Assembly: GCA_027486795.1 (NCBI GenBank)
Contig: JAIXOI010000049.1
Span: 124,001 to 188,000, forward strand
Reading direction: 5' to 3'
DNA length: 64,000 bases
DNA from: Sphingobacteriales bacterium
Lineage (GTDB): Bacteria; Bacteroidota; Bacteroidia; Chitinophagales; CAIOSU01
Below are positions 2,957 to 6,435 of this stretch, one piece after another. The notes below the pieces were generated by a model, which had not been told where the DNA came from, made no database searches, and saw only the letters and a program-made list of their open reading frames with translations. A program made the translations under genes and the position numbers. Each line of letters opens with the position of its first letter. Positions within the stretch are counted from its first letter, which is position 1.

Positions 2957-3520
2957 ATGAGAGTTGAGAAGAAAGAAAACGGTTTGCGCGAGCGCCGATC
3001 TAAAACGGTGCGTACTTACCTAAACGAATACACGGCTAACCATGCCATAAGCGAAAAAGATACACTAGGCCTAGCTTCGGCGGCACGTTGTGGAGATCTA
3101 ACCGCACTGAATACCTTGGTTGATACACACCTTAGTTTGGTGAAAACCGTAGCACGAAAATATCAAAATCAAGGTCTTTCGTTCCAAGAACTTACTTACA
3201 CAGGCAATATTGGCCTCATTAAAGCTGCCAACAGGTTTGATGAGAGCAAGGGCGTAAGTTTTCGCACCTATGCCATCTGGTGGATTCGCCAAACAATTTC
3301 CAAAGCATTACAAGAACATTTGCGCATTAGTGAGGTAAAAGACGTAAGCCTTACCGACCTTTGGGTTATCCCAGAAAGCTTCAGCAACTGGGAGGCCATG
3401 GACGATACTGAGCCATCGCGCAAACAGATGTATGCCTTTCTTGAAACGAAGGTGTACGAAATAGCCAAACTTAACCCAAAGGCTCACCCCGAGCGCTTTG
3501 CTTGGCTTCCCCGCGCATAG
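2957..3520 (+). CDS. Sigma-70-like protein with region 2 only (regions 3 and 4 missing)
   Basis: 187 residues. Residues about 35-120 are a complete sigma region 1.2-2 (LVKTVARKYQNQGLSFQEL, GNIGLIKAANRFDESKG, FRTYAIWWIRQTISKAL), covering core binding (2.1-2.2) and -10 recognition (2.3-2.4). After about residue 125 the similarity to RpoD ends, and a 60-residue unrelated tail replaces regions 3 and 4 (-35 recognition). The 153 bp downstream hold no missing region in another frame. It stands directly before a full-length paralogue in the same direction. It may be a decaying duplicate, or a core-binding competitor of other sigmas; the open frame and clean region 2 favour recent or continuing use. 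Confidence 0.72.
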   Translation: MRVEKKENGLRERRSKTVRTYLNEYTANHAISEKDTLGLASAARCGDLTALNTLVDTHLSLVKTVARKYQNQGLSFQELTYTGNIGLIKAANRFDESKGVSFRTYAIWWIRQTISKALQEHLRISEVKDVSLTDLWVIPESFSNWEAMDDTEPSRKQMYAFLETKVYEIAKLNPKAHPERFAWLPRA

Positions 3521-3673
3521 GCGCATTCAAACCCAACCATTTATTGTAAACAATTTTGGCAGCCTAACCATCAGGTAACAGCATCCGTATGTCCGCATCG
3601 GAAACCAATGGAACAGCTTGCCACCCATGTAACAGCCGTGTGAACAGGGTTTTAAATTTTGAGGAATAAGGAT

Positions 3674-4537
3674 ATGAGGCAGTTGAGAATAAACCAAAGA
3701 TTTACCACCCGCGATTCGTTAGCACTTGAAAAATATTTCAAGGAAGTGGCTAAACAATCAGCTATTTCGTCTGACGAAGAGGGTATGCTGGCCAAGCGCA
3801 TCCGCATGGGAGACATGCAATCGTTAGATACTTTAGTGCGCGCAAACCTTAGGTTCGTAATATCGGTAGCCAAGCAATATGAAGGCTTCGGTATGCACCT
3901 AGAGGATTTGATAAGCGAGGGTAATATTGGCCTTATGAAAGCCGCACGCCGTTTTGATGAGAGCAAGGGCTATAAGTTTATAAGCTATGCCGTGTTCTGG
4001 ATAAGACAGTGCATACTCAAGTCGCTAAACGAAAATGCGCGTATTATTAGAATGCCAAGCAATCAATTGGCCCAGATTCAAAAAATGCACAGCACTTTTA
4101 GCCGATTAGAACAAATGTTTGGCCGCGAGCCTTCGGCCGAGGAGTTGGCCCTGGAGCTTGACCTTACACCGGCAGAGGTAAACAAGGTATTGTTTCAATC
4201 GCAAGGTTCGGTTTCTATTGATAGGCCTATTGGTAGCAACGAAGATGATGTCTCGCTTTTGGATAGGCTAAAGAACGAAGCGGAGGAAGCTCCCGACAAT
4301 TGCTTGATGCAAGAATCGGTTTCATTGGAGCTTGCACGTTGCCTTGATAGGTTGAATGTTCGTGAAGCAACTGTGATTAAAATGCACTTTGGCTTGGATG
4401 GGCAAACCCCTATGAAGTTTGAGGAAATAGCTGAAAGTATGGGATTGGGAAAAGAGCGTGTGCGACAGCTTAAAGTACAAGGCATAAGAAAACTGCAGAA
4501 CCTTACGCAACGTAGCGGACTGCTTAATAAGATTTAG
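3674..4537 (+). CDS. RpoD-like primary-type sigma factor (paralogue)
   Basis: 287 residues, the usual length of Bacteroidota RpoD, which lack most of region 1.1. The start MRQLRIN (ATG at 3674) fits the family MRQLKI start; a TTG 15 bp upstream is less likely. Region 2 (RFVISVAKQYE, DLISEGNIGLMKAARRFDESKG, SYAVFWIRQCILKSL), region 3 (FGREPSAEELALELDL) and region 4 (REATVIKMHFGLD, ..GLGKERVRQLKVQGIRKL) are all present. Several normally fixed positions differ from the housekeeping protein (FWIRQC for WWIRQS, RIIRMPSNQ for RIVRLPLNK), so this is probably an RpoD paralogue rather than the principal sigma. It is followed by the repeat array at 4541-5394. Confidence 0.85.
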   Translation: MRQLRINQRFTTRDSLALEKYFKEVAKQSAISSDEEGMLAKRIRMGDMQSLDTLVRANLRFVISVAKQYEGFGMHLEDLISEGNIGLMKAARRFDESKGYKFISYAVFWIRQCILKSLNENARIIRMPSNQLAQIQKMHSTFSRLEQMFGREPSAEELALELDLTPAEVNKVLFQSQGSVSIDRPIGSNEDDVSLLDRLKNEAEEAPDNCLMQESVSLELARCLDRLNVREATVIKMHFGLDGQTPMKFEEIAESMGLGKERVRQLKVQGIRKLQNLTQRSGLLNKI

Positions 4538-4685
4538 TAGAATTGGTTGATTGGTTAATCAGTTATTGGTTAATCAGTGATCAGGAGGGACTAAAAAACA
4601 GAAGACATCGAACGCTTGAAAAGCGAAGTGCAAAATATGAAAAGTACTAGTCACTATTCACTGGCAACTAGTTACTCAAAGAAAT

Positions 4686-4765
4686 GAGGTTGGTTTTGAG
4701 ACCTGAAGGATAATAGGGGGTTGGCCGTTTTTGTGCCACTCTTACGGGCAACCCCTGCCTTTAGG
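4686..4765 (+). repeat. Array unit 1: conserved box and hairpin
   Basis: Box 4686-4701. The outer stem is 4702-4709 with 4758-4765 (8 bp, one G-U). There is an internal loop of 7 nt on the left and 2 nt on the right. The inner stem is 4717-4723 with 4749-4755 (7 bp), extended by 3 bp after one mismatch. The stem sequence differs from the other units while the architecture is kept. An ATG at 4684 opens a 9-codon frame (MRLVLR...). Confidence 0.75.
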
Positions 4766-4985
4766 ATTTGGCTGATTGGTTATAGGTTAACAGGTTATTG
4801 GTTATTAGTTAATACGTTAACGAAAAGAGGGAACTATAAAATTGAGGATACCGCAAGCTTTATAAGCGATGCGAAAAAAGATAAAGAGTGCTATTTACTA
4901 ATCAACAGTAACTAGTTACTCAAGAAATAGTGGATTGCAAATAAGGATGCTAAAACATAACCTTACTCGCTCTCCGCACTGAAAT

Positions 4986-5058
4986 GAGGTTGGTTTTGAG
5001 ACTTAAAGGAAACGGGCTGCCGCGCCAGGCTGCAAACTTGCACGGCGGCCCCCTTTAA
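4986..5058 (+). repeat. Array unit 2: conserved box and hairpin
   Basis: Box 4986-5001. The outer stem is 5003-5009 with 5052-5058 (7 bp). A left-side bulge AAAC follows, then a 9-bp inner stem 5014-5022 with 5043-5051. Inner pair 7 is C5020-G5045, while unit 3 has T-A there. The frame from ATG 4984 runs 24 codons (MRLVLR...) to a stop inside the hairpin's 3' arm. Confidence 0.8.
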
Positions 5059-5145
5059 AGTATCTGAAGACTTATCCTAAAAAATAGTGGATTGTCGAAT
5101 ATTGGAAATGCAAACACACTCCATACTCGCTCTCTACACTGGATT

Positions 5146-5217
5146 GAGGTTGGTTTTGAGATTTAAAGGAAAACGGGCTGTCGTGATGTCTCCACCGTTG
5201 CGACGGCCCCCTTTAAA
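5146..5217 (+). repeat. Array unit 3: conserved box and hairpin
   Basis: Box 5146-5161. The outer stem is 5162-5169 with 5210-5217 (8 bp). A left bulge AAAAC follows, then a 9-bp inner stem 5175-5183 with 5201-5209. Compared with unit 2 the inner pair 7 is T5181-A5203, a compensatory change. The ATG seen in units 1 and 2 is ATT here, with TTG in frame. Confidence 0.8.
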
Positions 5218-5339
5218 GAGGTTGATTGTTTAATCAGTTATTGGTTGATTAATGAACCGAAAGACTTGTGGTAAAAAATAGTGGATTGTCGAATATTGGA
5301 AATGCAAACGCACTCCATACTCGCTCTCTACACTGGATT

Positions 5340-5394
5340 GAGGTTGGTTTTGAGACAGTAATATAGGCTCCTTAATTGGGGCCTTTACTGTTTT
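5340..5394 (+). repeat. Array unit 4: conserved box and hairpin with T-tract
   Basis: Box 5340-5355. The outer stem is 5355-5361 with 5385-5391 (7 bp). A left bulge TAT follows, then a 7-bp inner stem 5365-5371 with 5378-5384 (one G-U) and a 6-nt loop. Only this unit ends in TTTT, so it can act as a plus-strand Rho-independent terminator closing the array. Confidence 0.78.
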
Positions 5395-5400
5395 AGTAGG

Positions 5401-6435
5401 CTATAGTTGAGGGCAAGGAATGCTCAAACGGCGTTTGCCAACAGTGGTAAATAAACCTGAGTATATCAGCGATATCTCGTAAGCACCACGAGAGTCACTT
5501 ACTGTATTGAGCTTTGAGATGTTAACGTCATACGATAGCCCAATCATAAAGCGAACAAAATCTAACCTAGCACCAACAATAACAGCATCTGGGGTGGTGT
5601 TGCTTATGCGTCCCCAAGCGCCTAAAGCAAAGGCAACGTCTCCGTCATCACGGTACTCCATAACAAACTGGAGGTAAGTGCCAAAATTCGCCAATCTTGA
5701 GGGGCCTTGTTGGGCATACATGATACTTGGCAAAAAGTACATGCTGCGGGTAGCTTGAAATGAGCCTCCTGCATGAAATGTATATTTTGGCTCAAGGCTA
5801 TAGTTGGCACTTGATAAGAGCGATATTTTAGGTTGTAAAATGTGAGCATAGGCCGCGCCCAAGTATACGTTCACGAATTTATTGGGCATTATTTGGTAAA
5901 GTAGCCCTACACTAGCATCAGGTTTTAAGCCAGAACCTCCTGCCACGTTTTCGCCAGAGAGAATATCTGGGTCAACCTCAATGCCATTGTACTGGTTGTC
6001 GAAAATTAACTCTTCCGTATCAATGCGCTGTCCAATTAAGTTAAACTGGCCACCAATACCCAAAGTGTGTTTCACTTTACGCCCCAGTTGCTTCCTATAA
6101 CCAAGCGACAAAGTAAGCTGGTTGGTACCAAATGCCGCGGTACCTGCCACATCGTTATAAAAATGCAGACCAACTGCAAAATTATCGTCTTTTAGCTGTG
6201 CTTTAAACAAGGATAACTCAGCAGATGCTGCCGCGGTGCGGTAAGTATTGGTAAAACTACCCCATTGGCTGCGGTAGTTGGCTATAATGCGGTAATCGCC
6301 ATCAAAAAAGCCCGTGAGCGCTGGGTTTAGAAACAAAGGATTGGCGTTGAATTGGGAAAATTGCGGATCCTGTGCCTTCAGCACGGATGCCAAAGCCACC
6401 AAGAACAACAATATCACCAACCTACTATTCCTCAT
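5401..6435 (-). CDS. PorP/SprF family T9SS-associated outer-membrane protein
   Basis: 344 residues. A signal peptide ends at VLKAQ; the mature protein opens with DPQFSQFNANPLFLNPALTGFF, the hallmark of the PorP/SprF family, and continues as alternating strands of a barrel about 320 residues long (family usually 300-350). Members sit in the outer membrane and assist secretion or anchoring of a type B CTD partner. The start codon overlaps the end of the upstream gene by 4 bp, so the two are translationally coupled, and that gene encodes a type B CTD protein, its probable client. Confidence 0.93.
   Translation of the reverse strand: MRNSRLVILLFLVALASVLKAQDPQFSQFNANPLFLNPALTGFFDGDYRIIANYRSQWGSFTNTYRTAAASAELSLFKAQLKDDNFAVGLHFYNDVAGTAAFGTNQLTLSLGYRKQLGRKVKHTLGIGGQFNLIGQRIDTEELIFDNQYNGIEVDPDILSGENVAGGSGLKPDASVGLLYQIMPNKFVNVYLGAAYAHILQPKISLLSSANYSLEPKYTFHAGGSFQATRSMYFLPSIMYAQQGPSRLANFGTYLQFVMEYRDDGDVAFALGAWGRISNTTPDAVIVGARLDFVRFMIGLSYDVNISKLNTVSDSRGAYEISLIYSGLFTTVGKRRLSIPCPQL

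Follow-up and report, generated by a model that had tools for sequence, protein, structure and literature searches.

A genus-restricted array of box-and-hairpin units with covarying stems behind a sigma factor gene in Chitinophagales

Introduction

Many Bacteroidota lack Hfq, and the organisation of their small RNAs is only now being worked out. LhrC, Qrr and other small RNAs that occur as tandem or multicopy paralogues have a promoter and a terminator for each copy, and repeats such as BOX, REP/BIME and attC are modular hairpins of variable copy number that are dispersed or mobile. Here, we analyse a 64,000-nucleotide (nt) window from the 3.9-Mb genome of an uncultured freshwater bacterium that belongs to an uncultured genus of Chitinophagales (assembly GCA_027486795.1, contig JAIXOI010000049.1, positions 124,001 to 188,000), in which a gene for an RpoD-like sigma factor is followed by a tandem array of four units, each made of an invariant box and a two-part hairpin. 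The array is a real, undescribed and genus-restricted structured RNA. All coordinates are those of the window, and plus and minus denote its strands; the window genome is referred to as G000 and the compared members of the genus as G001 to G004.

Among described systems, the FopS small RNAs of Bacteroides thetaiotaomicron invite comparison: this multicopy family, bound by the RRM_1-class protein RbpB, has a conserved sequence box at the 5′ end and a hairpin after it, includes one member derived from a 3′ untranslated region (3′ UTR), and is encoded by dispersed genes that carry a promoter and a Rho-independent terminator of their own (PMC11697453). The array shares with FopS the Bacteroidota host, the multiple copies and the 5′ box with its hairpin, but its units stand in tandem behind one gene, no promoter was seen for them, and they match no Rfam model. 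Rfam gave no match for the array at an E-value of up to 1, which would speak to FopS itself only if the model reportedly deposited there (PMC11697453) is part of the release searched. The CsrB/RsmZ sponges likewise present many copies of a short motif between hairpins on one RNA; the array motif, however, is not a GGA in a hairpin loop, and here too there is no Rfam match. A CsrA sponge was rejected, as the genome holds no match to CsrA while the search controls were positive. LhrC and Qrr resemble the array in being paralogous RNA units and differ in that no promoter of its own was seen for any array unit, and BOX, REP/BIME and attC elements differ in that the array box occurs at two fixed loci only.

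Results

Four boxes lead into hairpins with covarying stems

The 16-nt box GAGGTTGGTTTTGAGA occurs in four exact plus-strand copies, starting at 4686, 4986, 5146 and 5340; shuffles of the whole window contain on average 0.52 matches even when three mismatches are tolerated. When the units are folded singly, each box leads into a two-part hairpin (H2), whose outer and inner stems are separated by a left-sided internal loop, with z-scores of -2.3, -2.8, -3.0 and -4.9 for units 1 to 4. The array comprises the following features, all on the plus strand:

4686..4701, +, box 1, exact match
4702..4765, +, hairpin H2 of unit 1 (outer stem of 8 base pairs (bp), 6/1 loop, 8-bp inner stem), folding and covariation
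4930..4979, +, spacer hairpin H1 before box 2 (GTGGA...TCCGCAC), folding
4986..5001, +, box 2, exact match
5002..5060, +, hairpin H2 of unit 2, folding and covariation
5087..5139, +, spacer hairpin H1 before box 3, weak, folding
5146..5161, +, box 3, exact match
5162..5217, +, hairpin H2 of unit 3, folding and covariation
5281..5333, +, spacer hairpin H1 before box 4, folding
5340..5355, +, box 4, exact match
5356..5394, +, terminal hairpin (CAGTAA...GGCTCC/GGGGCC...TTACTG) with a short T-tract, much the same sequence in all four arrays

A preliminary description, made from the sequence alone, had proposed four boxes, each with a two-part hairpin, and exact matching together with single-unit folding recovers every one of them. 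The outer stem is 8 bp long in units 1 and 3, and the left/right internal loops of units 1 to 4 measure 6/1, 4/0, 5/0 and 3/0, so that three of the four loops are as first described while that of unit 1, given as 7/2, had to be revised. The change of inner pair 7 from C-G in unit 2 to T-A in unit 3 was correctly recognised. Unit 4 does end in a T-tract, as had been noted, but this is weak (TGTTTTAG) and altered to TGTTTAAG in the closest relative; the end of unit 4 is not a strong intrinsic terminator. The small frame MRLVLR reported for two units is present in units 1 and 2 only. Relatives carry TTG, TAG or other letters in its place in many units, and a conserved gene was rejected on account of this loss. 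Larger repeats in the region indicate that spacer sequence, too, is common to units 2 to 4.

Covariation was assessed on 19 units (18 of them distinct) from four genomes. In this alignment, which was fitted to the model's structure so that its counts lean towards that model, standard pairs make up 92.5% of the cells, both-sided changes occur in 14 of the 16 pairs, and the covariation score reaches 0.549, where shuffles score 0.198 ± 0.022 and slid pairings 0.159 at most; folding of single units gives the same hairpins. Of 392 pairs, 47 are G-U, whereas the stems contain four A-C mismatches, and in 17 of 18 units folding favours the plus over the minus strand. Because of the G-U versus A-C asymmetry and the strand-specific folding, the units are read as plus-strand RNA rather than as a DNA cruciform, and the compensatory changes in the alignment show the stems to be held as such. 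Together with the fixed place after the sigma gene, these observations lend good support to the earlier proposal of a structured RNA family transcribed from the plus strand.

The array is conserved in place and confined to the genus

Syntenic arrays lie 3′ of the sigma gene with four units in the window, five in G003, six in G001 and four in G004; the G002 contig ends before the array position and gives no count. All 19 units retain the box core TTGGTTTTGAGA, with a single additional T in three of them. First units are orthologous between genomes (CCT...AGG), as are last units (ACAGTA...TACTGT with GGCTCC/GGGGCC), whereas the middle units vary in number and diverge in sequence. In a scan of about 85,000 species genomes, clusters of the box pattern appeared in this genus only, and viral contigs yielded scattered single matches and no clusters. 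Covariation is strong within four genomes; in the covariance-model search that had been suggested, models R1 and R2 found no convincing unit outside the genus among 199 and 398 relatives, up to about 400 genomes of the order, and those weak matches that were read resemble coding DNA or ordinary terminators. Rfam 15 has no match for the window at the gathering score and none for positions 4500-5450 at an E-value of up to 1, in agreement with the statement that no known RNA family has this architecture.

The array accompanies a genus-specific sigma factor

Upstream of the array lies a tandem pair of sigma factor genes:

2957..3520, +, truncated sigma-70 paralogue of 187 amino acids, first of the pair, Pfam Sigma70_r2 only
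3528..3540, +, candidate anti-box CAAACCCAACC, 5′ of the full sigma gene, from box-duplex energy
3659..4537, +, full-length RpoD-like sigma factor of 292 amino acids, Pfam regions 1.2, 2, 3 and 4

The full-length protein is listed from a TTG at 3659, and the conserved protein starts a few codons later (MRQL). It is present in all five genomes of the genus, with 86-100% identity within the genus and at most about 50% over the full length outside it, and by this comparison it is genus-specific. The truncated paralogue, which has region 2 and no region 3/4, was likewise found in all five; its nonsynonymous divergence (dN 0.006-0.010) against synonymous divergence (dS 0.18-0.26) between close members indicates strong purifying selection, and it may modulate the full sigma factor.

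The gene downstream of the array is a minus-strand PorP/SprF gene in the window, in G003 and, by sequence, in G004, and a different gene in G001 (L190:190-972 compared with window 5401-6435). Because the downstream gene differs in G001, it is the sigma gene that the array accompanies and not the gene after it. As the array is followed by no coding gene in its own orientation, there is no sign of the ligand-responsive switch or attenuator that had also been considered. A search for the canonical Bacteroidota promoter (TTTG ... TAnnTTTG; at least 3/4 and 5/6 matches required) found none before any box of the window array, and in G003 the first box lies only about 15 nt 3′ of the sigma stop codon; co-transcription with the sigma gene is therefore the simplest reading. 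Within the 3′ end of the sigma gene, a motif TTTG-N22-(T/G)AAGTTTG stands at 4388-4421 and is kept in G001 and G004. It could be an internal promoter for the array, but the stretch is conserved coding sequence.

A solitary second copy closes a conserved noncoding block

One other place in each of the five genomes combines box and hairpin, always as a solitary copy. In G000 it follows a predicted surface-protein gene at a distance of about 118 nt (G000:C18:4580), where the box ends in GAGC and the stem compensates, with AAAAGCC/GGCTTTT in G000 and AATAGCC/GGCTATT in G004. The box hairpin forms the 3′ end of a noncoding block of about 155 nt (G000:C18 ~4480-4635; L189:1481-1636) that is 88-89% identical to G001 and G004, compared with 71-76% for the adjoining coding end and 28-47% for the downstream DNA. 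The conserved part includes some 85-100 nt upstream of the box, and it starts with AAACC(A/G)GCC, which is complementary to the block's own box; the predicted pairing between the two has a mean probability of about 0.9 in three genomes and 0.31 in G001. Outside the genus, the block gave short terminator-like matches only. The block is probably a separate new RNA that carries a complement of the box within itself.

Beyond the two loci, most of the box-like matches inspected fall in long open frames, and none has a comparable hairpin after it. An antisense partner of long complementarity was rejected, since box matches with up to two mismatches on both strands outside the two loci equal the reversed control.

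Spacers are heterogeneous

Long, imperfect inverted repeats of the TTGGTTATTGG / CCAATAACC type make up several G001 and G004 spacers (z down to -7.2), and some of those in the window and in G003 contain a hairpin unrelated to these repeats, GTGGA...TCYRCAC. As far as folding predicts, H1 is a tendency, not a rule. A single-stranded box as an array-wide rule is likewise unsupported by folding. Heptamer-like TTGGTTA / TAACCAA repeats also occur in the spacers (4540-4580, 4777-4812 and 5220-5255; L042:1700-2770) and form long inverted repeats in relatives.

Discussion

The box stays constant amid diverging surroundings and beside stems under pairing selection, and for this reason we favour a trans factor that reads it. 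Tentatively, and with rather less than even confidence, we picture an RNA array co-transcribed with the sigma gene, co-transcription being its most likely origin, that presents four to six boxes to this factor as a multivalent platform. The sigma transcript would include the array, in which each unit consists of a spacer, often with hairpin H1, the 16-nt box and H2 with its A-rich left-sided internal loop. The box would be recognised by sequence, either by an RNA-binding protein or by a pairing RNA, and the hairpins would space and protect the boxes. The platform might then serve as a decoy or sponge, or as a store of processed small RNAs, and could tie sigma expression to control of the second RNA and of other ligands. 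The window genome encodes one RRM_1 protein, at G000:C27:13839-14048, and neither Hfq nor CsrA, and we infer the RRM_1 protein as a candidate reader of the box. A more specific version is rather unlikely: the array in the sigma transcript would capture the box-reading factor, and competition for it would couple sigma expression to the second-locus RNA, placing a sigma factor and a sponge in one operon.

Several observations weigh against the platform. What links the RRM_1 protein to the box is the presence of such a protein. H1 is wholly different in sequence between G000/G003 and G001/G004, and some copies fold weakly, with z-scores of -0.1 for one in G004 and -0.7 for one in the window. Moreover, the boxes are predicted to be no more accessible (0.25-0.60) than the array is on average (about 0.38).

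The main rival is that the units are FopS-like, separate trans-acting small RNAs encoded in tandem, with the box as seed and H2 as 3′ end, the box pairing with translation-initiation regions of mRNAs, perhaps of the sigma mRNA itself. It would gain from an anti-box-like AACCC(C)AACC, which all five genomes keep in the gap between the two sigma genes, shortly before the full one, and from the AAACC(A/G)GCC upstream of the box in the second RNA. The window's anti-box candidate forms a predicted box duplex of -15.2 kcal/mol, which places it in the best 0.4% of single sites in the window but is not significant over the whole region; this energy rank is no more than suggestive. An own promoter for each copy, as in FopS and GibS, was not recognised before any unit of the window array; the hairpin is present, but no T-tract or terminator follows H2 except weakly in the last unit. 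The extra T tolerated in the box of three units also counts against this rival. Separate small RNAs, which the preliminary description had offered as one option, are not supported by these results, and we regard them as an unlikely explanation.

Could the hairpins instead act in cis, as a 3′-UTR element that stabilises or ends the sigma mRNA, with the box as a site for an RNase or a termination factor? The array follows the stop codon directly, and the second copy is likewise 3′ of a coding gene. Yet four to six copies over about 0.8-1.1 kb far exceed what stability needs, the invariance of the box demands a sequence reader, and conservation of the second RNA extends well upstream of its box. 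A purely cis role thus seems less probable than separate small RNAs. More doubtful again is a DNA element, for example a promoter for the neighbouring sigma factor with H2 at the transcript start. The TGGTTTTG part is similar to the Bacteroidota -7 element TAnnTTTG, the box runs directly into H2, the array is linked to a genus-specific sigma factor, and the plus-strand RNA signature is compatible with such a promoter too; however, no common upstream (-33) sequence stands at a fixed distance, box and hairpin occur at two genome loci only, neither ahead of the sigma gene, and the noncoding DNA around the second copy is itself part of a conserved block.

A decayed or active mobile repeat (a REP/BIME-like element, a miniature inverted-repeat transposable element or an integron attC array) can be practically dismissed: the units are tandem, vary in copy number and have one-sided hairpin loops that recall REP and attC sites, but the two loci per genome, both at conserved places and with no box clusters elsewhere, are not the many dispersed copies of REP/BIME, the compensatory changes reflect selection on pairing, conserved sequence flanks the hairpin on its 5′ side only rather than as the two-sided core sites of attC, a scan of a few neighbouring genes recognised neither a transposase nor an integrase, and neither empty sites nor scattered copies, which would support mobility, were seen.

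Finally, we would like to place the multivalent platform into the context of RNA-based regulation in Bacteroidota. As far as sequence comparison can tell, the array speaks for a genuine regulatory RNA that has not been described before. Its fixed place after a sigma gene, its invariant box and its strongly covarying hairpins make it a clean bait for an RNA-binding partner in this phylum. If the platform reading is true, a sigma factor and a multivalent regulatory RNA would be paired in one transcription unit.
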